DNA of 20,430 nucleotides. Origin: a virus. Positions 1,653 through 20,388 of the stretch are shown piece by piece. Within the stretch, counting starts at the first letter, position 1. Every line of letters begins with the position of its first letter. The translations under genes and the position numbers were made by a program. The notes under the pieces are model-generated. The model ran no database searches. It had not been told where the DNA came from and saw only the letters and a list, made by a program, of their open reading frames with translations. The stretch covers positions 1 through 20,430 of IMG/VR virus record IMGVR_UViG_3300013093_000346. The stretch is one strand, 5' to 3'.

Positions 1653-2636
1653 ATGGCAACTTTGGCAGAAATTAGAGCAAAACTTAAGGCATCCGAATCA
1701 AAAGGATCAGATGGAAATAGAACAGGCGGAGATAAATCAATTTATCCGTTCTGGAACTTAAAAGAAGGTAACGAATCCGTAATGCGATTTTTACCAGACG
1801 GCAACACAGATAATACTTTTTTCTGGGTTGAACGTGCAATGATCAAACTTCCCTTTGCAGGTATCAAAGGCGAATCAGAAAGCAAAAACATCACAGTACA
1901 AGTACCATGCGTAGAAATGTATGGCGACACATGTCCTATTCTTTCAGAAGTACGTGCGTGGTTTAAAGACCCAGCATTGGAAGATATGGGTCGTAAATAC
2001 TGGAAAAAGCGTTCTTACATTTTCCAAGGTTTCGTTGTTGAAGACGGACTAGGCGAAAAGAGTGATGAACAACCTGAAAATCCAATCCGTAGATTTATCA
2101 TCGGACCTCAAATCTTTACATCAATTCGTGCGGCACTTGTCGATCCAGAATTGGAAGATTTGCCAACTGACTATGTACATGGTTTAGACTATCGTATGAA
2201 GAAAGGTTCAAAAGGTGGTTACGCAGACTACTCAACATCAAGTTGGGCACGTCGTGAGCGTCCATTGAGTGATGCTGAACAAGCGGCTATTCAACAATAT
2301 GGCTTGTTTAACTTGACAGACTTTTTGCCTAAGAAACCAGGCGAAGTAGAATTGAAAGTTATGAAGGAAATGTTTGAAGCATCAGTCGATGGCGAACCAT
2401 ATGATATGGAACGTTGGGGACAATATTTCAAACCAGCAGGGATGAGCCAAAATACTGGCGATCCTGTGAAGTCAACTCCTAAAGCATCTGCACCAGTAGA
2501 TGATATCGATGAAGATGAGGCACCAGCACCGGTGGCCAAGTCTACTCCTGCTCCAGCACCAAAAGCTGAAGCAAGTGCCGGTGGCGATAGTCGTGCCCAA
2601 GACATCTTGGCAATGATTCGTAATCGTCAAAAGTAA
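1653..2636 (+). CDS. 32: Single-stranded DNA-binding protein gp32
   Basis: Coats single-stranded DNA during replication and recombination and cooperates with UvsX/UvsY and the replisome. It has 327 residues (T4 gp32 has 301). The basic N-terminus LAEIRAKLKASE corresponds to the cooperativity region. The DNA-binding core runs from about residue 30 to 240, with conserved blocks SIYPFWNLKEGNESVMRFLP, RKYWKKRSYIFQGFV and NPIRRFIIGPQIF. A Pro/Ala/acidic linker with DDIDEDE precedes a conserved C-terminal tip, AQDILAMIRNRQK, equivalent to the partner-binding tail. In the zinc region only C86 and C94 remain in VPCVEMYGDTCPIL; the last T4 zinc cysteine is Leu97. I recall the same CPIL in cyanophage gp32, so this looks like a family variant rather than damage. 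A strong SD supports ATG 1653; an overlapping ORF from 1555 is a shadow. Confidence 0.97.
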   Translation: MATLAEIRAKLKASESKGSDGNRTGGDKSIYPFWNLKEGNESVMRFLPDGNTDNTFFWVERAMIKLPFAGIKGESESKNITVQVPCVEMYGDTCPILSEVRAWFKDPALEDMGRKYWKKRSYIFQGFVVEDGLGEKSDEQPENPIRRFIIGPQIFTSIRAALVDPELEDLPTDYVHGLDYRMKKGSKGGYADYSTSSWARRERPLSDAEQAAIQQYGLFNLTDFLPKKPGEVELKVMKEMFEASVDGEPYDMERWGQYFKPAGMSQNTGDPVKSTPKASAPVDDIDEDEAPAPVAKSTPAPAPKAEASAGGDSRAQDILAMIRNRQK

Positions 2637-2701: not shown

Positions 2702-3757
2702 ATGGCTACAAAAGCCTTTGATTTATCAAAGTTTAGAAAAACATTGACCAAGAGTATTGATGGTCTAGGTGTAGGATTTAATGATCCTACAGATTGGGTT
2801 AGTACAGGCAACTATACGCTTAACTATCTAATCAGCGGTGATTTCCACAAAGGTATTCCGTTAGGTAAAGTTACTGTCTTTGCCGGTGAATCTGGTGCAG
2901 GTAAATCATTTATCTGTTCAGGTAATTTAGTACGAAATGCACAACAACAAGGAATTTATGTTATCTTAATCGATAGCGAAAATGCACTTGATGAAAAATG
3001 GTTACATGACTTAGGTGTCGATACCAGTGAAGATAAACTGCTTAAACTCAACATGGCAATGATCGATGACGTTGCTAAAACCATTCACGAATTCATGAAA
3101 GAATACAAGGAAATGACTGACCGTCCGAAGGTCCTCTTTGTTATAGACAGCCTTGGTATGCTTTTAACACCTACTGATATTAATCAGTTTGAAGCGGGTG
3201 ATTTGAAAGGTGACATGGGTCGTAAGCCTAAAGCATTGACAGCACTTGTTCGTAACTGTGTTAACATGTTTGGTAATTACAATGTAGGTATGGTTTGTAC
3301 CAATCATACATACGCAAGCCAAGACATGTTCGATCCAGATGACAAGATCTCAGGCGGACAAGGCTTCGTTTATGCAAGTTCTATCGTAGTTGCTATGAAG
3401 AAATTGAAGTTGAAAGAAGACGAAGATGGCAACAAAGTATCAGATGTAATGGGCATTCGTGCTAGTTGCAAGATTATGAAAACACGTTATAGCAAGCCTT
3501 TTGAAACTGTACAAATTAAGATTCCATATGAAACTGGTATGAATCCTTATAGCGGTATGGTCGATATGTTGGAGAAACAAGGTATACTTGTTCAGCAAGG
3601 TAATCGTTTAAAGTATGTAGACCCTACTACTGGAGAAGAACACTTATTCTACCGAAAAGAATGGAAAGAAGATAAATTAGATATGATAATGGCAAATTAT
3701 CATATTAAAACTTTAACAACTACTATTCCTGAGGAGACAGAAGAAAATGTTGAATGA
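2702..3757 (+). CDS. uvsX: RecA-like recombinase UvsX
   Basis: ATP-dependent strand-exchange protein that forms filaments on single-stranded DNA and drives recombination-dependent replication and repair, helped by UvsY and gp32. It has 351 residues (T4 UvsX has 391). The Walker A loop GESGAGKS is at 62-69. A RecA-type catalytic glutamate sits in LIDSENALD (E93). Walker B, VLFVID, is at 144-149 and is followed by SLGMLL. The glycine-rich segment KISGGQGFVYASS matches the DNA-binding L2 region. The C-terminus is rich in Glu and Thr (TIPEETEENVE). SD AGGAG is six bases upstream. The last 11 bases overlap the next gene. All key residues are present, so it should be active. Confidence 0.96.
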   Translation: MATKAFDLSKFRKTLTKSIDGLGVGFNDPTDWVSTGNYTLNYLISGDFHKGIPLGKVTVFAGESGAGKSFICSGNLVRNAQQQGIYVILIDSENALDEKWLHDLGVDTSEDKLLKLNMAMIDDVAKTIHEFMKEYKEMTDRPKVLFVIDSLGMLLTPTDINQFEAGDLKGDMGRKPKALTALVRNCVNMFGNYNVGMVCTNHTYASQDMFDPDDKISGGQGFVYASSIVVAMKKLKLKEDEDGNKVSDVMGIRASCKIMKTRYSKPFETVQIKIPYETGMNPYSGMVDMLEKQGILVQQGNRLKYVDPTTGEEHLFYRKEWKEDKLDMIMANYHIKTLTTTIPEETEENVE

Positions 3758-4447: not shown

Positions 4448-4470
4448 TCAATTCGCCCAAAAGATAATGG

Positions 4471-4504
4471 ATAGGCCTTAAATAATATTGAGGCCTATTT
4501 TTTT
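4471..4504 (+). terminator. Rho-independent terminator after uvsY
   Basis: Perfect 8-base-pair stem ATAGGCCT (4471-4478) with AGGCCTAT (4491-4498), a 12-base A/T loop, then an uninterrupted T run through 4504. It separates the 32-uvsX-uvsY unit from the next promoter, whose -35 box begins eight bases later. Confidence 0.88.
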
Positions 4505-4512
4505 CTAAAAGA

Positions 4513-4541
4513 TTGATTTATTGAAAAAGTGAGTGTATACT
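4513..4541 (+). promoter_or_regulatory. sigma70-like promoter heading the uvsW operon
   Basis: TTGATT (4513-4518), exactly 17 bases, TATACT (4536-4541). Seven bases separate the -10 box from ATG 4549, so the predicted transcript begins at or next to the start codon. It follows directly on the uvsY terminator, as expected for the head of a new operon. Confidence 0.65.
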
Positions 4542-4548
4542 TAATTAT

Positions 4549-5745
4549 ATGACAACAGTAGATAATTTATTAATAAAAATTGTGAATTTTTCTTCTCCTT
4601 CCATAGAAGAAAAAATACCTACCCGAGATAGTAGAGTCTTAAGAAGCCTTGTATCATCATTATCCAACAAGTTATTTGTAACTGAAAATCAAAGTAAATT
4701 ATTAATCAAAATTCTTCGGGAAAACTGCGAAAAATTATCTGATTTTTCCGAAGATATTAAGACTGCTCTAGTTAATCCGACATGGAGCCATCCTTTTAGA
4801 TACATAGAACAAATAAAGAAAGTATACATAGTAAAAAATCATGATGGCGATTCTTCTATTATTTTAGAAACAAACTATGTGTCAGAAACCCGAAAAATCT
4901 TGCAAGATATAGAAAAAAAATGCGAAGGCGTTCAAACATTGTTGCCTGGCAAGAAATTCGTTGTGGACCTTACTGAAAAAAATATAGTCACTGTGGTAGA
5001 CACACTTTTACCATTAGAATTTGAAATTGATGAAAAAATACAAGATTATTATGATACAATAAAATCTTGGTCAAAACCAGATGTTCAAGCACAATTTTTA
5101 ATTAGCAACATAGAACATAAAAACTTTCAAAAACACATAACAGATGATCTCGGAATAGAAACATCCATTAATAGAAATATTATTCATGACAGAAGTGTCC
5201 GTTATCAATACTTTACTGAAACTGAAAAAACTGCCGGCGAAACGTTGACAGAAGTTATTGCTAACAGACAAAAAACAAGAATATATGTTGATAAAAAACA
5301 ACATACAGTTTCAGATATTATGAAATCATTGATCGAGCTACGAAGATTTCCATTGTTAGTTGTGTTTGATACTTTTGTGAATAGTAAGTATCTTGAAAAC
5401 TTGCAGATTCTTTCAGCGGCCTTAGAAGATAACGGGATTACTGATAAAATTGGAATATATTTTAGATTACCTAACGATGATATTGGATTACAATTTAATC
5501 AATTAATTAAAGATAAAAACTATAATAGTAACTTAGATGCTGACACAAAGGTAGCAGTAGTAATGAGTGGTAAACTACCTAAATTCTTTTTAAAGAATGC
5601 CTGGCAACCTATGAGTGTGTTATCATTAGATACTAAAATGGGTTTACGTCATGGAAAAACTAGTGTATACTCTAATTGTTGTGATTGTATTGTAGAGTGG
5701 TCCGATGAGCCAGTTACAATGGAAATTAAGGCTGTTTTAAAATGA
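4549..5745 (+). CDS. Conserved unknown, first gene of the uvsW operon
   Basis: A 398-residue soluble protein without signal peptide or membrane segment. I recognise no nucleotide-binding loop or catalytic motif. The N-terminal half is Lys/Glu-rich and helical. A central stretch carries HDRSVRYQYFTE and a hydrophobic beta-like block, RRFPLLVVFDTFV. The C-terminal part has distinctive conserved-looking blocks, KLPKFFLKNAWQPMSVLSLD and GLRHGKTSVYSNCCDCIVEW, with three close cysteines. The alternation of beta-like and helical blocks in the second half recalls a RecA-like or helicase-C fold lacking its motifs, which is speculative. Its stop overlaps the uvsW start by four bases (ATGA), so the two products are made together and could act on the same DNA structures. 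No SD is seen; the promoter predicts a leaderless mRNA. Confidence 0.85.
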   Translation: MTTVDNLLIKIVNFSSPSIEEKIPTRDSRVLRSLVSSLSNKLFVTENQSKLLIKILRENCEKLSDFSEDIKTALVNPTWSHPFRYIEQIKKVYIVKNHDGDSSIILETNYVSETRKILQDIEKKCEGVQTLLPGKKFVVDLTEKNIVTVVDTLLPLEFEIDEKIQDYYDTIKSWSKPDVQAQFLISNIEHKNFQKHITDDLGIETSINRNIIHDRSVRYQYFTETEKTAGETLTEVIANRQKTRIYVDKKQHTVSDIMKSLIELRRFPLLVVFDTFVNSKYLENLQILSAALEDNGITDKIGIYFRLPNDDIGLQFNQLIKDKNYNSNLDADTKVAVVMSGKLPKFFLKNAWQPMSVLSLDTKMGLRHGKTSVYSNCCDCIVEWSDEPVTMEIKAVLK

Positions 5746-7208
5746 CTGTAAAATTAGTAATCCGTGACGAAGTGAATATTAAAATCGAAGGCCTACCATT
5801 AGAGGCCCGTAAAAAACTGGCTAATACTTTTAAATATGTGGACCCAACCGCCCGATATCGTCCTGCATTTAAACTAGGTCGTTGGGACGGTAAGGTAAGT
5901 ATGTTTGGCTTAGGCGGTAATGGATATCTTAGTCAATTAGAACGTGTATTATCTATATTATCGGATATGAATATAGATATAGATGAATTAGAAGATTTGC
6001 GTACAACATCTAAAATTGAATTTACACCTGTCACAGAAACTTATTGGGCTGACCAAGGAAAAGTATGGCCCAAAGGTCATCAACAAGAAGGCAAGCCTAT
6101 TATGCTACGTGATTATCAGGTAGACGCAATTAATAGATTCTTCGAGAATACACAAAGTCTGCAAGAAATTGCAACAGGTGCCGGAAAAACTATTACTACT
6201 GCTACATTGAGTCATTGTGCTGAAAAATATGGTAGGACAATTACTATTGTTCCAAATAAAAGTTTAGTTGAACAGACCGAAGAAGATTTTATTAATGTTG
6301 GGTTAGATGTCGGTGTTTATTATGGTGACCGAAAAGATTTAAACAAAACACATACAATTTGTACTTGGCAAAGTCTTAATATTCTAGATAAGAAAAGTAA
6401 AAATCACGAATACGATATTGTATCATTAGCAGAATTTTTAGACGGAGTTAGAACTGTTATAGTCGATGAAGTCCATATGGCAAAGGCCGATGTTCTTAAG
6501 AATTTGCTCACACAAAACTTGTGTAATGCTCCTATACGTTGGGGATTAACTGGCACAGTACCTAAAGGAGATTTTGAAGCCGAACCTATTTTTGCTAGTA
6601 TTGGACCAGTTATCGGCGGAATTAAAGCTCACGAATTACAAGAAATGGGTGTACTATCTAACTGTCACGTTAACGTAGTCCAGATGATAGATTTACCAGA
6701 GTTTAAGACATATCCCGAAGAATTAAAGTATCTTGTCACAGACGAAGACAGAATGATTTACATCAGTAAATTAATTAATAAAATATCACAATCAGGCAAC
6801 ACATTAGTTTTAGTTAACAGAATAGATTCAGGCAAGTTTTTAGTAAATGAAATACCCGATTCAGTGTTTATATCAGGTGCGGTAAAAACAACGGACAGAA
6901 AAGAAGAATATGACGAAATTAAAACAAGTGATAATAAAGTTATTGTGGCTACCTTTGGTGTTGCCGCTGTGGGCATTAATATCCCTAGGATTTTTAATTT
7001 GGTTTTGTTGGAACCCGGGAAAAGTTTTGTCCGTGTTATCCAAAGTATTGGCCGAGGTATAAGAAAAGCTGAAGATAAAGATTTTGTACAAATCTGGGAT
7101 TTAACAAGTACGTGTAAGTGGGCTAAACGACATCTTACAGAGAGAAAAAAATATTACAAGGAAGCCAAATATCCGTTTACTTTAGATAAAGTGGACTGGC
7201 AAAAATAA
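5742..7208 (+). CDS. uvsW: DNA/RNA helicase UvsW
   Basis: Superfamily 2 helicase that remodels branched DNA and R-loops and helps switch from origin- to recombination-dependent replication. It has 488 residues (T4 UvsW has 503). The N-terminal RPAFKLGRWDGKVSMF block is typical of the family's DNA-binding domain. LRDYQVDAI (122-130) is the Q-like motif, ATGAGKT (144-150) motif I, DEVH (242-245) motif II, LTGT (269-272) motif III, NTLVLVN (353-359) motif IV, and QSIGRGIRK (434-442) motif VI with arginine fingers. All look intact. The start overlaps the previous stop by four bases. Six bases separate its stop from the next start. Confidence 0.95.
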   Translation: MTVKLVIRDEVNIKIEGLPLEARKKLANTFKYVDPTARYRPAFKLGRWDGKVSMFGLGGNGYLSQLERVLSILSDMNIDIDELEDLRTTSKIEFTPVTETYWADQGKVWPKGHQQEGKPIMLRDYQVDAINRFFENTQSLQEIATGAGKTITTATLSHCAEKYGRTITIVPNKSLVEQTEEDFINVGLDVGVYYGDRKDLNKTHTICTWQSLNILDKKSKNHEYDIVSLAEFLDGVRTVIVDEVHMAKADVLKNLLTQNLCNAPIRWGLTGTVPKGDFEAEPIFASIGPVIGGIKAHELQEMGVLSNCHVNVVQMIDLPEFKTYPEELKYLVTDEDRMIYISKLINKISQSGNTLVLVNRIDSGKFLVNEIPDSVFISGAVKTTDRKEEYDEIKTSDNKVIVATFGVAAVGINIPRIFNLVLLEPGKSFVRVIQSIGRGIRKAEDKDFVQIWDLTSTCKWAKRHLTERKKYYKEAKYPFTLDKVDWQK

Positions 7209-10768: not shown

Positions 10769-11860
10769 ATGCAAAAAATTCAAAGTTATTTATATCCAAA
10801 TAGGATTATACTACTAGCCGATGTGGCAGGCTTCACTGTGGAGAATAAAGTCGTGTACGCAAGAACAATTAAAATATATCAAGGCATCGATAATGTCGTT
10901 GAATTCGACATACAAAATGCTGATCAAAAACGTATAGACTTAACTACTCTATCTAATATACAAGTAAATGTCATGGACGCAAGTGGTAACGCACTACCAT
11001 CGAGTCCGTATACTGTAAACTTATTATCTGTAGCTACTGCTACTAATGCCACAACTGTGGCAACTGTTGGACAAGCTACAACTACAACTATTACAATTCC
11101 AACAGCACATGTAACTGGAACTTTTAGTGTCGGGTATCAACTAACTGGAACAAACATAATCGGGCCTGTATTTGTAAGTAGCATAAATTCTGATATAGAT
11201 AGCGCAACTACAACACTAACTGTTACTTTTCAAAATCAAACAGTAGCCTTGGCAACTAATCAAAGTTTATCGAATATAGTTAAAGGATTAGCATCGATTA
11301 CTATTCCAAAAACTGATTTATGGGATTTAAAATCACAATATTTAAAATATAGTGTAACTGCTACTCAACTAGGAAACACTGTAGTTTTGTATACAGATAG
11401 TCAATTTGGCGCTTTGGGAACTTTAGAATTGGTAGGAAGTGCTACTCCTATATGTCGTAAAGATGTAATCTATGATAAATTCGTAGGTGAAATTAATTAT
11501 ATAGGTAATGTTATCAATCACACTCCGGCTATACCTTGCAAATTCTACGAAGCAACACCTACAGAATATATGAGTTTTAGTGTAGTTTTAAATAACTTTG
11601 TTGGAACAATCTATGTAGAAGCTACGGAAGATATGACTATTTCGGTTGGATCGTTTTTAAATGCACCGCAGTTACAATCATTTACTTGTACTACGGCAAC
11701 ATCCACAACTATAACTTTTAGTAATGTTCCTGTAGCAAGCGCCGGAGGTCGATATAACTACATGCGTATAAGTTGGTTATATCCAGATGTTTGGCAGTAC
11801 GGTGGACAAGATCCAACTTTAATGTACGGATCGATAACCAAAGTCATTGCATCATCATAA
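10769..11860 (+). CDS. Virion structural protein, beta-rich, probable neck or tail component
   Basis: A 363-residue protein starting MQKIQSYLYPNRIILLADVA. The N-terminal block VYARTIKIYQGIDNVVEFDI and the later DVIYDKFVGEINYIGNVINH, AIPCKFYEATPTEYMSFSVV and TIYVEATEDMTISVGSF are well ordered beta-strand blocks. A Thr/Ala-rich inserted region spans about residues 85-165 (ATATNATTVATVGQATTTTI). Composition, lack of enzyme motifs and a late promoter point to a virion part. I recall related proteins as virion structural in T4-like marine phages but cannot place it on the particle. The minus-strand neighbour overlaps only if its rejected upstream start is used. Confidence 0.8.
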   Translation: MQKIQSYLYPNRIILLADVAGFTVENKVVYARTIKIYQGIDNVVEFDIQNADQKRIDLTTLSNIQVNVMDASGNALPSSPYTVNLLSVATATNATTVATVGQATTTTITIPTAHVTGTFSVGYQLTGTNIIGPVFVSSINSDIDSATTTLTVTFQNQTVALATNQSLSNIVKGLASITIPKTDLWDLKSQYLKYSVTATQLGNTVVLYTDSQFGALGTLELVGSATPICRKDVIYDKFVGEINYIGNVINHTPAIPCKFYEATPTEYMSFSVVLNNFVGTIYVEATEDMTISVGSFLNAPQLQSFTCTTATSTTITFSNVPVASAGGRYNYMRISWLYPDVWQYGGQDPTLMYGSITKVIASS

Positions 11861-11875
11861 AAAACCTGCTATAAT
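11847..11875 (+). promoter_or_regulatory. sigma70-like promoter of the primase operon
   Basis: TTGCAT (11847-11852), exactly 17 bases, perfect TATAAT (11870-11875). Only five bases lie before ATG 11881, so the predicted +1 coincides with the start codon. Its -35 box lies in the end of the upstream virion gene. Confidence 0.75.
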
Positions 11876-11880
11876 TAGAC

Positions 11881-12870
11881 ATGAGTCTAATAGCAGATAC
11901 ACTTTTAACATACTTACCCGGAAAGCGTAAACACACTCCAAGCGGTTGGATTGGGTTTAATGCTGTCTGCTGTGACGACAAAAGACAACGTGGCGGATTT
12001 ATTATCAATGGCGGTGATGCAGTTAGCTATCATTGTTTCAATTGTGGATTCAAATGCAGTTGGCAACCGGGCAGACATATCAGTCAAAAAATGAATAAGT
12101 TCATGCGGGATTTAAATATCCCCGATGATGTCATTTCACAGTTACGATTAGAAGCACTTAAATTAGATAATAATAATACGACAGAAATACGAAGTATCAT
12201 TCCAAAGTTTGATATTAGAGCATTGCCTATGGATTCTAAAGGGTTTGCTGAATGGGACACTTGGCTGCATGTTAGTGGCCCAGAGTTTGCTCCTGAAGGT
12301 CTAGCTAAGGTAGTTAACTATGTTAATGACCGAGGTATACATCCTCTTAGCTATCCATTTTATTATTCAAATAAAGTTGGATTTACTAACAGGATTATTA
12401 TTCCTTTCTTGTACAAAGGAGAGATCGTAGGTTGGACCGCCCGGGCAATTAATGATGCTCAACCTAAATATCTGTCGGAACAACAACCTGGTTATGTGTT
12501 TAATCTAGATAATCAACAGGATGATAGAACGTTCGTAATTGTTAGCGAAGGTCCGTTTGATGCGCTAAGTATTGATGGCTGTGCATTACTCGGAGCAGAA
12601 ATTAAAGACAGCCAAAATTGGCTATTAAAACAATTAGGCAAAGAGCTTGTGCTAGTTCCCGATAGAGATCATGAAGGTCCAAAAACGGTAGAACGTGCAA
12701 TAGAATTAGGGTGGAGTGTTAGTATGCCCGACTGGCCTAATGATGTTAAAGATATAAATGATGCTGTAATTAAACTAGGTCGACTGGCAACAATGTGGTT
12801 GATTGTTAGTGCAAAAGAATCTAACAGTCTTAAAATACAATTAAGAGCAAAAAAATGGTTCAAAGAATAA
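11881..12870 (+). CDS. 61: DNA primase gp61
   Basis: Makes RNA primers for lagging-strand synthesis together with helicase gp41. It has 329 residues (T4 gp61 has 342). The N-terminal zinc site is C30-C31 with H51-C52-x2-C55 (YHCFNCGFKC), in the CC variant I recall from cyanophage primases. The catalytic core shows VGFTNRIIIPFLYKGEIVGW and then a Toprim domain: E223 in VIVSEGPFDALS and D261/D263 in LVPDRDHEG, the metal-binding acidic residues. PKYLSE near 196 is a further conserved segment. No SD precedes the ATG; the promoter predicts a leaderless transcript. The last 16 bases overlap a 38-residue gene. Confidence 0.93.
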   Translation: MSLIADTLLTYLPGKRKHTPSGWIGFNAVCCDDKRQRGGFIINGGDAVSYHCFNCGFKCSWQPGRHISQKMNKFMRDLNIPDDVISQLRLEALKLDNNNTTEIRSIIPKFDIRALPMDSKGFAEWDTWLHVSGPEFAPEGLAKVVNYVNDRGIHPLSYPFYYSNKVGFTNRIIIPFLYKGEIVGWTARAINDAQPKYLSEQQPGYVFNLDNQQDDRTFVIVSEGPFDALSIDGCALLGAEIKDSQNWLLKQLGKELVLVPDRDHEGPKTVERAIELGWSVSMPDWPNDVKDINDAVIKLGRLATMWLIVSAKESNSLKIQLRAKKWFKE

Positions 12871-12971
12871 TCAATTTTATTTTATCTCCTATACGAAAAT
12901 ATAAAGAGAAACAAGCATTTAAGAAAAAATTAGAAGAGATGCGTAAACGCGATCCTTTCATTTACAAATGA
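12855..12971 (+). CDS. 38-residue basic protein between primase and carbamoyltransferase
   Basis: ATG 12855 to TGA 12969-12971. It reads MVQRIINFILSPIRKYKEKQ followed by a Lys/Arg/Glu-rich helix and the ending RKRDPFIYK. It has an amphipathic, hydrophobic N-terminal turn and a net strongly positive helix, so it could sit on a membrane surface or bind nucleic acid. It overlaps the primase by 16 bases and the carbamoyltransferase start by four (ATGA), exactly the coupling seen across this genome, and it fills an otherwise empty gap. I recall similar short ORFs ending in RDPFIY downstream of cyanophage primases. Function unknown. Confidence 0.75.
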   Translation: MVQRIINFILSPIRKYKEKQAFKKKLEEMRKRDPFIYK

Positions 12972-13909
12972 TACACTGGGGAATTAACGCACTTAATCAT
13001 GGCAGTAGTCTTGCTGTTTTTAAAAACGGCAAGCTATGGTCCAATACTGTTAACACCAGTGTTAGTTTAAATGCCGAAACTATTCGTCAAGCATTACATC
13101 AAGGTGCACCTGATCGTATATTTTGGTACGAACGCCCTTGGATTAAAAAAGCAAGACAACTATATGCCGGACAATATAAGACGGCATTAGATATGTCTAC
13201 ATTACCGAAACGACATTTAATGCAATTTAAATATGCACCTATTACATATAGTCCTCACCATGGGAGTCATGCTGCCGCTGGGTATTATACTAGTCCGTTT
13301 AATCACTGTGCAGTTGTTGTACTTGATGCGATTGGAGAATTCGAATGTGCCACCATCTGGGAAGCAAAACACGGAGAATTGAAAAAAATGTGGAGCAGAA
13401 GTTATCCACATAGTTTAGGATTATTTTATAGCGCATTTACACAACTGTGCGGACTTACTCCTATTAGAGATGAATATCTATTGCAACAAATGGCCGATCA
13501 AGGCGATAAACAACGGTATTTTAAAGAAATTAATGGCTATATCAGCAATACACTACAATTGAAATATAATTTACATAGAGGGGTACAAAACTGGCCTTAC
13601 CCTATTAATAATTTACAAGATCAATGCGATATTGCCGCGGCGGTGCAAGATGCGTTTGAAGGACAAATTGGTATGGTAATGATGGAAGCTAGAAAATTAA
13701 CCAATACTGATTGTCTAGTTTATATGGGCGGTTGTGCTATGAATTCAGCGGCCAATAAAAGATTTGTCGAGCCCATGTTTAAGTATCGTTGGAGTTTACC
13801 TAATCCCGGCGATCCAAGCAGTAGTATAGGTGCAGTACTGTATCATACCAAACAACGAGTATGGGATTACAAGTGGGATATTGTCAAACACATTGAGATT
13901 AATGTTTAA
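12968..13909 (+). CDS. NodU/CmcH-family carbamoyltransferase, Kae1-like domain only
   Basis: Predicted to transfer a carbamoyl group from carbamoyl-adenylate to a hydroxyl. The 313 residues correspond to the N-terminal Kae1/TsaD-like domain. IHWGINALNHGSSLAV opens the ASKHA fold. SPHHGSHAAAGYY carries the HxxxH metal pair (H97/H101). VVVLDAIGEF (D120) and LVYMGGCAMNSAANKR are the later nucleotide-site blocks. Full-length NodU, CmcH and TobZ proteins are near 550-600 residues and carry a second, YrdC-like domain that makes carbamoyl-adenylate; it is missing here. Short forms are, as I recall, usual in T4-like cyanophages. A phage family of this kind has been reported to carbamoylate 5-hydroxymethylcytosine, so DNA modification is a real possibility. 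The start overlaps the 38-residue gene by four bases. Confidence 0.88.
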   Translation: MIHWGINALNHGSSLAVFKNGKLWSNTVNTSVSLNAETIRQALHQGAPDRIFWYERPWIKKARQLYAGQYKTALDMSTLPKRHLMQFKYAPITYSPHHGSHAAAGYYTSPFNHCAVVVLDAIGEFECATIWEAKHGELKKMWSRSYPHSLGLFYSAFTQLCGLTPIRDEYLLQQMADQGDKQRYFKEINGYISNTLQLKYNLHRGVQNWPYPINNLQDQCDIAAAVQDAFEGQIGMVMMEARKLTNTDCLVYMGGCAMNSAANKRFVEPMFKYRWSLPNPGDPSSSIGAVLYHTKQRVWDYKWDIVKHIEINV

Positions 13910-13921
13910 AGAAAGTATAAT
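13893..13921 (+). promoter_or_regulatory. sigma70-like promoter of gene 41
   Basis: TTGAGA (13893-13898), exactly 17 bases, perfect TATAAT (13916-13921), then six bases to ATG 13928. The predicted +1 is the A of the start codon. The -35 element lies at the end of the carbamoyltransferase gene. Confidence 0.75.
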
Positions 13922-13927
13922 ATATAC

Positions 13928-15358
13928 ATGACACAAAATACAAATTACGGATACGATATACAAAAACTATACATCGAAATGATGTTGAATGATGCAGAAT
14001 CTTTTGTGAGATGTCAAAGCATTTTTGATCCATCATTGTTTGATCGCAAACTACAGACTAGTGCGGAATTCTTGGCAAAATATGTAGAAGAATATAATAG
14101 TTTGCCCACACTAGATATTATAAATGCGGCAACTGATTCATCTTTTAAACAGTTAACTGATGTTAAAGAAAATGATTACGATTGGCTACTAAATGAATTT
14201 GAAACTTTTATCAGACATAAAGGACTCGAACGAGCAATCTTAGAATCAGCCGATTTACTAGAAAAAGGTGAGTACGGCCCTGTAGAAGAAAAAATTAAAC
14301 AAGCAGTTCAAATTGGTTTGCAGAAAGATATGGGTACTGATTACTTTGAAGATCCCCGTGCTAGACTATTAAGGATTAAAGATAAAAATGGACAAATATC
14401 AACAGGATGGAAATCTATCGACGATAAACTTTATGGCGGTTTTAATCGCGGGGAACTTAATATCTGGGCTGGCGGTAGTGGTGCTGGCAAAAGTTTGTTC
14501 TTGGCTAACCTAGGCGTTAATTATTCTCTTGCTGGACTCAATGTATTATATCTTACATTAGAACTTAGCGAAGACTTAGTCTGTATGCGTGTTGACGCAA
14601 TGACTACCGGTATACCAACAAGAGAGATTTTTAAAAATATCGATGATGTTGAAATGAAAGTTAAAGTTATTGGTAAAAAATCTGGAAATCTACAAGTAAA
14701 ATACATGCCAAGCGGTAAAACATGTAATGACATTCGTGCATACTTGAAAGAATATGAAGTTAAAATGGGACATAAAGTCGATGTATTACTAGTAGATTAT
14801 ATGGACTTGTTGATGCCATTGAGTAAAAAAATTAGTGCAGAAAACTTGTTTGTTAAAGACAAGTATGTAAGTGAAGAGATGCGTAATTTGGCAGTGGAAA
14901 AAAACTGTGTTTGTGTAACTGCGGCACAGTTAAATCGTGGTGCAGTTGAAGAAGTGGAGTTTGATCACAGTCATATTTCAGGCGGACTATCTAAGATTCA
15001 GACAGCTGATAATGTGTTTGGTATCTTTACAAGTCGTGCTATGCGTGAGCGTGGACGTTATCAAATTCAGTTAATGAAGACACGTTCTAGTTCAGGTGTT
15101 GGTATGAAAATTGATTTAGATTTTAATATCGATACATTGAGAATTAGTGATTTAGATGAACAAGATGGATATGGAAATGGCGCACCAAGCGCAGGATCCA
15201 CATTGTTAAATTCTATTAAACAAAGACAGACAGTTAACACATCTACAGGAGAAATTACAGACCCTGGTAACGGAATAGCATTACCTAAAGTTAAAGCAGA
15301 AGTGGCTAGCAGTAAGTTGAGAGAACTATTGAATAATTTACCGGGAGATGATGTATAA
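13928..15358 (+). CDS. 41: Replicative DNA helicase gp41
   Basis: Hexameric DnaB-type helicase that opens the replication fork and partners primase gp61. It has 476 residues (T4 gp41 has 475). The helical N-terminal domain spans roughly residues 1-130. The RecA-like core begins near STGWKSIDDKLYGGFNRGEL. Walker A GGSGAGKS is at 182-189, the catalytic Glu212 is in YLTLELSED, Walker B VLLVDYMD starts at 286, and the sensor Gln334 is in TAAQLNR. SHISGGLSKIQTADNVFGIF follows as the DNA-binding loop region. The C-terminal tail (after about 415) is polar. No SD is evident; its own promoter predicts a leaderless mRNA. No terminator is obvious downstream. Confidence 0.95.
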   Translation: MTQNTNYGYDIQKLYIEMMLNDAESFVRCQSIFDPSLFDRKLQTSAEFLAKYVEEYNSLPTLDIINAATDSSFKQLTDVKENDYDWLLNEFETFIRHKGLERAILESADLLEKGEYGPVEEKIKQAVQIGLQKDMGTDYFEDPRARLLRIKDKNGQISTGWKSIDDKLYGGFNRGELNIWAGGSGAGKSLFLANLGVNYSLAGLNVLYLTLELSEDLVCMRVDAMTTGIPTREIFKNIDDVEMKVKVIGKKSGNLQVKYMPSGKTCNDIRAYLKEYEVKMGHKVDVLLVDYMDLLMPLSKKISAENLFVKDKYVSEEMRNLAVEKNCVCVTAAQLNRGAVEEVEFDHSHISGGLSKIQTADNVFGIFTSRAMRERGRYQIQLMKTRSSSGVGMKIDLDFNIDTLRISDLDEQDGYGNGAPSAGSTLLNSIKQRQTVNTSTGEITDPGNGIALPKVKAEVASSKLRELLNNLPGDDV

Positions 15359-15904: not shown

Positions 15905-18652
15905 ATGAGCACAGTACATTCAGTTAAATTAATAGCGTACGATTATGTAGATATCGCGAGCGTAAGTTATAATAATGGTGACGTAATCTACGACGGCACA
16001 AATGTCACATTACGAGTTATGGACGGTCATACTGTCGGTGGCTGGCCCCTTGCTACCCAATCATGGGTTAATCAAAATGCATTGACTGTCTCTTCTTTAG
16101 CTCCTGCCGTTTCTGCCGCGCTAAGTACCCAATTAGTTAACTATTCAACTTCTGCACAGATCGCAGGAACTTATGCAACACAGGCACAACTAAGTGCCGC
16201 AGTAGCTGGAATTATTACAGTTATACCCACAGCAGGTACCGGCCCATCTGGTACATTAGGCGGGGTCAGAGTAGATGGTACTTCAATTACAATTAACCCA
16301 TCAACTGGTGTTATTAGCGGTGCTAACCAATATCAACTACCCAAAGCCGTAGCTCAATCAGGTGGAGCAGGCGGAACATTAGGAGGTGTTATCCCCGATG
16401 GCACTAGCATTGTAATTAATGCGTTGACTGGTGTTATTAGTGGCGCTAATCAATACGTTCTTCCTGCGGCTGGGACAACAACCATAGGCGGGGTTAGTGT
16501 AGCAACCAATAATGGATTGACTTTAAATACTTCATCCGGAGCTTTGAGTCTTACTATCGCTATAGCTCAATCCGGCGGCACAGGAGGAACATTAGGTGGT
16601 GTTATTCCTGACGGTACTACTATTACAATTAATAATGGAGTAATAAGCGGCTATGCTGGCTACACATTGTCAGCAACTACCACTACGACACTAGGTGGTG
16701 TTATTATTCCAGTAACTGCTAACTCAGGTCTTACTAATAGCAGTGGAACAATACGTTTGGCTACAGCAAGTACTACTCAACTTGGTGGCGTTAAAGTTGA
16801 CGGTAGCACAATTATTATTAACGGCAGCGGAGTTATATCAGCACAGATTACTGGTGCGATTATCTTCCAAGGCGGCTGGGATGCAAGTACAAATACACCA
16901 TTCTTGACTAATGGTGTTGGAACAAACGGATTTGAATATGTAGTTACTAAAGCAGGTACTGTTAGTTTTGGCGCTGGCCCTATTACATTTACAATTGGTG
17001 ATAACGTAATTTATAACGGTACTATTTGGGTGCGTGTTCCTATCGGAGCAAGTGCTGGTACAGTTAATAATTTATTAACATTCAATAATTCAGGAACAGG
17101 ATCTTCAAGCCCTTCAAGTTTCAATGGTAGTAGTGCTGTAACTATTTCTTACAATAGTATTGGAGCTGAACCAGCTGGTGGTAGTTCAGATATAACTACT
17201 GTAGGAACAATTACTTCGGGTACATGGAACGGTACATTAATTGGATCACAATACGGCGGAACTGGCGTTAATAATAGCCCTTATACAATTACAGTAACTG
17301 GGGCTAGTCAAACATTAAATCAAAGTGTGGCTAGCGGCTCGGCTCCTACATTCCTTGGCACAAACTTTACCAGCATTCCTAACACAGCATTAGCCAGTAG
17401 CAGTATAACATTTGGAACTACATCACAGGCATTAGGTTCAACTATAACAAATATTAACGGCGTTAATGTCGGACCTACTACTCCTGGTACTGGTGCATTT
17501 ACTACATTATCAGCAACTGGCGCAATTACTCATAATACTACAACCAATAGTCAAAGTTATACTACTACAAGTACTGGTACTATAACAATTACTTCGGGTA
17601 CAGCAGGCAATATTAATAATATGAATATTGGTGCTACTACTCCTGGTACTGGTGCATTTACTACATTATCAGCAACTGGCGCAATTACTCATAATACTAC
17701 AACCAATAGTCAAAGTTATACTACTACAAGTACTGGTACTATAACAATTACTTCAGGTACAGTTGGTGCTATTAATAATATGAGCATTGGCGGTACTACT
17801 GCGGCCGCCGGCACGTTTACCGGACTGACAGTTAATAGTACAACTAACACTCCAACTTTAGCTACTACCACTACTGCTATATCTTCTACTGCTTGGACTA
17901 CTACTGGAATAAACTTTAGAATTCAGGCAAGAACATATACGGATACCACTAGTGCTAGCGGTACAGTTGCCGCTAGTTATATTAATGCATTGTCGGCACC
18001 TACACTAGCATCATCTAATACTATTACAATAACAGACGCGGCTAACTTGTATGTTGCGGCACCTGTGAACGGTACGGGTACATCTTTTACTAATGCTAGT
18101 GCTATTTTAACTAACGGTGTGATAAAATCAACAGTGGCAACTGGCACGGCACCGTTTGTTGTTGCAAGTACAACTGTAGTTGCTAACTTGAACGCAAATT
18201 ATTTAAACGGTGCATCATTTGCTTCTCCTGGTACATTAGGCAGCAGTACTCCAGGACAGGTTAATGCTACTAATATAGTTCAATCAAGCGCCGGCGTACA
18301 TTATTTCCAACAACCTAGCCCTACGGCATTGGTTACTGCGGGTGCTACTACTTTAACTATTGCCCAAATGCTAACTTTGATAATAACTTATAATGCTACC
18401 GGTACGGCAACTTGGACATTACCAACAGGTGCATTAACTGACGCTGGTATATTGTCAGGCGCTTTAGTTGTAAATGGATCGTTTGAATGGTATATTATTA
18501 ATCTTGCAACAGGGGCAAATACTGTTACTTTGGCCGCGGCAGCTACCGGACATACTATTGTGGGTAATACTACTGTGGCAATATCATCACAGGCAGCATT
18601 TAGAACTGTTAAAACTGCTACCAGTACTTACATAACTTATAGAATTAGTTAA
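15905..18652 (+). CDS. Large repeat-rich tail fibre or virion surface protein
   Basis: A 915-residue, Thr/Ser/Gly/Ala/Asn-rich beta-structured protein with very few charged residues, as expected for a trimeric fibre. The N-terminus (1-100) contains DVIYDGTNVTLRVMDG and a helical heptad-like stretch that may attach it to the virion. Residues about 110-320 carry at least four diverged repeats of the type LGGVxxDGTxIxIN...GVISG. The middle has GTITSGTWNGTLIGSQYGGT, and then two almost identical 53-residue units follow (about 520-626) plus a diverged third. The C-terminal head region includes ATWTLPTGALTDAGILSGAL and ends TSTYITYRIS. It probably recognises the host surface. No chaperone-type autoprocessing motif is recognised. 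The stop overlaps a minus-strand gene by four bases. Confidence 0.88.
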   Translation: MSTVHSVKLIAYDYVDIASVSYNNGDVIYDGTNVTLRVMDGHTVGGWPLATQSWVNQNALTVSSLAPAVSAALSTQLVNYSTSAQIAGTYATQAQLSAAVAGIITVIPTAGTGPSGTLGGVRVDGTSITINPSTGVISGANQYQLPKAVAQSGGAGGTLGGVIPDGTSIVINALTGVISGANQYVLPAAGTTTIGGVSVATNNGLTLNTSSGALSLTIAIAQSGGTGGTLGGVIPDGTTITINNGVISGYAGYTLSATTTTTLGGVIIPVTANSGLTNSSGTIRLATASTTQLGGVKVDGSTIIINGSGVISAQITGAIIFQGGWDASTNTPFLTNGVGTNGFEYVVTKAGTVSFGAGPITFTIGDNVIYNGTIWVRVPIGASAGTVNNLLTFNNSGTGSSSPSSFNGSSAVTISYNSIGAEPAGGSSDITTVGTITSGTWNGTLIGSQYGGTGVNNSPYTITVTGASQTLNQSVASGSAPTFLGTNFTSIPNTALASSSITFGTTSQALGSTITNINGVNVGPTTPGTGAFTTLSATGAITHNTTTNSQSYTTTSTGTITITSGTAGNINNMNIGATTPGTGAFTTLSATGAITHNTTTNSQSYTTTSTGTITITSGTVGAINNMSIGGTTAAAGTFTGLTVNSTTNTPTLATTTTAISSTAWTTTGINFRIQARTYTDTTSASGTVAASYINALSAPTLASSNTITITDAANLYVAAPVNGTGTSFTNASAILTNGVIKSTVATGTAPFVVASTTVVANLNANYLNGASFASPGTLGSSTPGQVNATNIVQSSAGVHYFQQPSPTALVTAGATTLTIAQMLTLIITYNATGTATWTLPTGALTDAGILSGALVVNGSFEWYIINLATGANTVTLAAAATGHTIVGNTTVAISSQAAFRTVKTATSTYITYRIS
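17475..17762 (+). repeat. Two near-identical 129-base direct repeats, 159-base period, in the fibre gene
   Basis: Copy 1 at 17475-17603 and copy 2 at 17634-17762 differ at a single base (17596 G, 17755 A), a synonymous change. The 159-base period equals 53 residues, so the frame is kept. A third unit starting near 17775 is clearly diverged. Such identity implies recent duplication or gene conversion. Confidence 0.95.
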
Positions 18653-20205: not shown

Positions 20206-20388
20206 ATGCTAAACACTATTATACTTGCCACTTGCCAATTAATCTCTTTCGCTCCTGATCAAGGCCTACATGTGTGCAAGTACACATGCGACCAAGGTCC
20301 TAAAACTGTAATCAACGTGGTCAGCAACAACAGCAACTATATTTGCCAACGACAAATCACAGTTAACCGTTGGCTGCATAATCGTTAA
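20206..20388 (+). CDS. Small Cys-containing, possibly exported protein
   Basis: A 60-residue protein: MLNTIILATCQLISFAPDQG is a short hydrophobic leader that could be a signal peptide, though it lacks a clear positive start. CKYTCDQG, then NYICQRQITVNRW, give three further cysteines. C-x-Y-x-C-D-x-G is reminiscent of small exported host proteins. No SD is visible, and the promoter is weak. It is divergent from the other Cys-rich exported gene, with 65 bases between their starts, which suggests a pair with related envelope roles. The gene is likely but not certain. Confidence 0.55.
   Translation: MLNTIILATCQLISFAPDQGLHVCKYTCDQGPKTVINVVSNNSNYICQRQITVNRWLHNR

Follow-up and report, generated by a model that had tools for sequence, protein, structure and literature searches.

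T4-like and jumbo phages of a large environmental family place host-type sigma70 promoters directly against the start codons of a set of replication genes, a feature that is real, conserved and widespread. Leaderless genes as such are known; what is new is a class of replication genes with this geometry in T4-like and jumbo phages that have Shine-Dalgarno (SD) sequences elsewhere. Judged from promoter position, sigma70 transcription starting at or near the start codon would give leaderless or near-leaderless mRNAs for the primase, the helicase and an open reading frame linked to uvsW, a reading to which we assign a probability of about 0.82. Most Proteobacteria have few leaderless mRNAs, but this phage clade apparently uses them for core replication enzymes.

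The stretch analysed, hereafter the window, is the 20,430-base IMG/VR virus fragment IMGVR_UViG_3300013093_000346. It encodes gp32, uvsX, uvsY, ORF 4549 and then uvsW, a gp61-like primase, a carbamoyltransferase-like gene and a DnaB-like helicase, whose closest named relatives are in PA5oct-like Pseudomonas jumbo phages (~50% identity). The promoters, the hairpin and the predicted leaderless genes described next lie on the plus strand, as do uvsW, gp32 and uvsX. The predicted leaderless primase (11881..12870; PHROG 47, E 7.6e-41; Toprim_2) is preceded by a -35 element TTGCAT at 11847..11852, within the 3' end of the upstream ORF (10769-11860), and by TATAAT at 11870..11875, 5 bases before its ATG. 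The T4 gp41-like helicase (13928..15358; PHROG 19, E 1.5e-72), also predicted leaderless, has TTGAGA at 13893..13898, within the 3' end of the carbamoyltransferase-like gene, and TATAAT at 13916..13921, 6 bases before its ATG. The third promoter, TTGATT at 4513..4518 with TATACT at 4536..4541, ends 7 bases before ORF 4549 (4549..5745, 398 aa), the first and predicted leaderless gene of the uvsW operon, and an intrinsic-terminator-like hairpin (4469..4500; 13-pair stem, T-rich tail) lies between uvsY and this promoter. The uvsW-like helicase (5742..7208; PHROG 16 DNA helicase, E 1.6e-74) is second in the operon, not first, its start overlapping the ORF 4549 stop as ATGA at 5742. Each of the three ATGs is the earliest start codon of its own frame.

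These promoters have the sigma70 hallmarks of a TTGACA-like -35, a 17 ± 1 spacer and TATAAT, the window primase -35 being weak (3/6 consensus match) and most relatives carrying TTGACA/TTGATC-type elements. The sequence-only reading had described 17-base spacers and distances of 5, 6 and 7 bases to the ATG, and all three promoters are as described. The pattern TTG-N20-TATA(A/C)T-N5-7 is matched by exactly three of the window's 21 gene starts, those of the primase, the helicase and ORF 4549; among 20,000 sets of resampled upstream regions, 19,958 held no match, 42 held one and none held two or more, so the arrangement exceeds chance. A generic sigma70 scan fails to pick the three promoters out (94 promoter-like sites in the window against 73 ± 9 in shuffles); the signal is the geometry. 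The SD contrast drawn by the same reading also stands: the three genes lack an SD, whereas the gp32-like ssDNA-binding protein (1653..2636; PHROG 1192) has AAGGAG and the UvsX-like recombinase (2702..3757; PHROG 97) has AGGAG. A weaker promoter that it had placed before 20206 is rejected; TATACT there is 9 bases off, has no -35 and is not conserved, and the one relative of this 60-aa ORF (97% identical) likewise lacks a -35.

Comparison of the upstream geometry in relatives, which had been suggested as a check, shows the 5-7 base spacing to be conserved. The comparison drew on 80 IMG/VR relatives; the -10 box lies 4-9 bases before the helicase start in 63 of 85 loci, and the actual distances are always 5-7. 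The letters between the -10 box and the ATG vary while the spacing stays, even in divergent helicases, and where a helicase is extended at its N-terminus, the -10 box has shifted along with the new ATG. For the ORF 4549 family the geometry is found in 31 of 37 members, down to ~21% protein identity. The primase was called with the geometry in 74 of 82 loci, of which five are false calls, leaving about 69 of 82. Those five (L054, L056, L058, L059 and L061) keep the promoter ahead of a ~25-base leader without an SD; their upstream regions, as we read them, represent an intermediate state, and they indicate that leaderlessness is not obligatory.

Most helicase exceptions (19) have an SD-like match, and about 12 of these have a primase directly upstream, where C-terminal motifs served as a rough guide to the identity of the upstream gene. 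The relation between helicase architecture and SD is not significant after tree correction, with at least eight changes and five independent supported pairs, which are too few. In the window the carbamoyltransferase-like gene (12968-13909) separates primase from helicase; elsewhere among the relatives the two are parted by another insert or by nothing, and the signal at the helicase start tends to vary accordingly.

Whole-contig reading of eight of the longer relative contigs (81-364 kb) revealed two promoter classes in the same genomes. The TATAAT-to-ATG distance has two peaks, at 5-7 and at about 29-34 bases. A promoter matrix trained on leadered promoters only, then run over all sequences, found 577 promoters with a start codon within 60 bases: the start lies 5-8 bases after the -10 box in 125 (the short class), 9-12 bases in two, and 22-36 bases in 299 (the leadered class). 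Promoter scores are equal in the two classes, and the -35 hexamer sits at 17 bases in both. An SD of at least five letters precedes 2% of short-class starts against 65% of leadered ones, and a pyrimidine occupies position -1 of the ATG in 89% against 49%, an excess predicted by a transcription start on the A of ATG. With one member per family, SD frequencies are 0% and 51%, and the -1 pyrimidine stands at 90% in the short class. The two classes thus form a clean natural contrast, the same sigma70 signals with or without a leader.

T4 has its own phage-specific promoters. Its middle promoters carry a MotA box near -30, with core TGCTT, together with TATAAT, and its gp55-dependent late promoters consist of TATAAATA without a -35. 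Both identities were rejected for the short class, in which the TGCTT core and TATAAATA each occur in 0 of 27 promoters; T4 middle or late signals were found in neither the short nor the leadered class. Some short-class members are single genes from one phage. One short-class gene, at 165532 of contig G001, was considered as a sliding clamp, an identity left unsupported by its match to PHROG 12062 (unknown) and by the lack of a convincing PDB match.

Sigma70 polymerase initiates ~7 bases past the -10 hexamer and favours a purine after a pyrimidine. In the window, the -10 boxes would put +1 at the start codon (5, 6 and 7 bases) and an SD is absent. At these host sigma70-type promoters, transcription would begin at the first base of the start codon or within ~1 base of it, and the primase, the helicase and the uvsW-linked ORF would come from leaderless or nearly leaderless mRNAs. 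We infer that translation of an RNA beginning at AUG would do without an SD and proceed chiefly through leaderless initiation of the 70S type; it is mainly 70S ribosomes that bind leaderless mRNAs, at a 5'-terminal AUG (PMC9031893). That messages for primase, helicase and the uvsW operon are leaderless, as the earlier reading had proposed, is well supported by the conserved spacing, the missing SD, the -1 pyrimidine and the existence of a separate leadered class, its promoter at 20206 excepted. The genomes are AT-rich (about 60%), and TATAAT could accordingly be a coincidental part of an AT-rich, unstructured translation-initiation region, or transcription could start further upstream. We consider this very unlikely, given a -35 exactly 17 bases off, a sharp peak at 5-8, a near-empty zone at 9-12 and the -1 pyrimidine.

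The short geometry extends past the relatives of the window and is enriched in replication and nucleotide genes. We scanned IMG/VR with the pattern TTGACA-N17-TATAAT-N6-ATG, using no gene information; all figures refer to the first matches listed. Among these, the ATG opened an ORF of at least 60 aa in 79 of 124 cases at 6 bases against 25 of 116 at 12 (p 4e-11), and an SD of at least four letters was present in 8 of 52 at 6 bases against 53 of 58 at 31 bases. Within the same listed matches, a PHROG DNA or nucleotide family was matched by 19 of 30 sampled genes at 6 bases (one of the 19, L241, has an SD too) against 7 of 30 in the 31-base leadered control (p 0.004). The 6-base genes among the matches listed include primases, clamp loader, a 5' exonuclease family, DNA ligase, dCMP deaminase, UvsW, UV endonuclease and other exonucleases.

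Precedents exist outside these phages. In Actinobacteria and Deinococcus-Thermus, leaderless genes carry a TANNNT -10 about 12 bp before the start and likewise no SD, with the same spacing logic (PMC3160421, PMC12340547); the phage short class differs in having a full -35/17/-10 sigma70 promoter and in being concentrated in replication genes. Among gamma-proteobacterial genomes, only 15 of 239 were found to contain such TANNNT-type leaderless genes. Thermus phage phiYS40 also has genes with leaderless mRNA (PMC3594737), as predicted here, but its gene set is not that of the present phages, and Thermus hosts use leaderless genes widely. T4 genes 61 and 41 encode proteins homologous to the primase and helicase, yet neither has TATAAT beside its start, and gene 41 has TAAGGAG. 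In the open-access literature that we searched, leaderless replication genes have not been described for T4-like or PA5oct-like phages.

The presence of the geometry in PA5oct-like phages (Wroclawvirus; the group includes Paride) makes it testable, with concrete predictions in cultured Pseudomonas phages. The primase promoter region is at least 99% identical across all 11 PA5oct-like records and reads TTGACA-17-TATAAT-GTGCGC-GTG. The annotated primase start is the GTG directly 3' of the -10 box, and a second, in-frame GTG follows 6 bases on. The annotation (NC_071039 145884-145890; L082 6944-6950) is probably 6 bases too early, with the second GTG the true start. The PA5oct exonuclease gp244 also has the short geometry, its ATG 7 bases after the -10 box, and in this family (PHROG 298) the geometry is kept in PA5oct and two other phages at ~39% identity. 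The genes on either side of gp244 encode structural proteins that mass spectrometry has detected, and another such gene precedes the primase. Unlike in the window, the PA5oct-like helicase directly follows the primase and uses an SD. The primases of Atu_ph07, Phosso and XaC1 have an SD, and leadered promoters are visible in Atu_ph07 and XaC1.

What the geometry is for can be approached from genome context. In 65% of short-class families, against 16% of leadered ones, the promoter core lies within an upstream gene that runs in the same direction (p 6e-6). With promoters embedded in the last part of the upstream gene and starts that lack an SD, translation would hinge on transcription from the gene's own promoter. 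RNA that reads through from upstream, that of virion genes included, should yield little replication protein, since embedding and the SD-less start together predict poor translation, which would tie the protein to its own promoter. Helicases directly after the primase usually use an SD instead. Against such gating, a gap of 15-20 bases to the upstream stop could permit termination-reinitiation. Taken alone, promoter-gated translation as the function of the leaderless geometry is a tentative proposal that we hold at somewhat less than even odds. The broader version, in which T4-like and jumbo phages infecting many kinds of aquatic bacteria would possess a dedicated leaderless sigma70 class gating replication, repair and nucleotide genes against late-operon read-through, is doubtful.

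Three further explanations are compatible with leaderless mRNA or presuppose it. The geometry may simply be the shortest promoter fit between packed genes, with no regulatory meaning, a possibility we regard with some doubt. The 15-20 base intergenic gaps before helicase and primase speak for it, as does the overlap of promoter core and upstream gene in most short-class cases; but the gap before ORF 4549 measures 101 bases and contains a putative terminator, and the gene is nevertheless predicted leaderless in 31 of 37 relatives; upstream genes harbour leadered promoters too (13-24%), and packing alone does not explain the enrichment in replication genes. Leaderless initiation is weak in most Proteobacteria, and the geometry could instead tune expression, with weak initiation for the low-copy catalytic primase and helicase and strong SDs for the stoichiometric gp32 and UvsX. 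AGGAG-type SDs kept by gp32 in 11 of 11 relatives and by uvsX in 10 of 11, and the scarcity of leaderless mRNAs in enterobacteria (PMC9031893), agree with tuning, which we nonetheless find questionable, the promoters themselves being near consensus in most relatives. The sequence-only reading had suggested escape from changes in ribosomes or initiation factors during infection; in a wider form, leaderless messages would stay translatable after ribosomes, S1 or initiation factors have been altered by the phage or by a host defence. Leaderless mRNAs do need initiation factors less (PMC9031893), and phiYS40 offers a precedent, with IF2 reported up and IF3 down (PMC3594737). However, gp32, uvsX and many other genes of the same phage genomes keep SDs, and no ribosome-modifying gene was identified in the present genomes; we regard escape as unlikely. 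Profile searches for RegB and RegA (SD cutting, translational repression) gave no match, and control searches were silent as well. In this genome context, promoter gating inside co-directional gene clusters is no worse a fit than escape from ribosome changes, and the same holds for compaction.

ORF 4549 lies beside uvsW in dozens of relatives. It has no PHROG, Pfam or PDB match by sequence, and its viral matches are uncharacterised phage proteins only, save one marginal low-probability hit. An AlphaFold2 model of good confidence (pLDDT 86, pTM 0.63) gave no fold match to the PDB at E 0.001, and Foldseek linked it to an uncharacterised protein of Atu_ph07.

Two other regions of the window deserve mention. 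About 70 bases before gp32, a TTGCAA/17/TATACT promoter-like site overlaps a 15-pair hairpin (1551-1584), and the two together (1537-1653) may serve gp32 control as an operator or leader element. Downstream of the helicase, positions 15905-18652 hold a long, repetitive, Thr/Ser/Gly-rich ORF that is tail-fibre-like.
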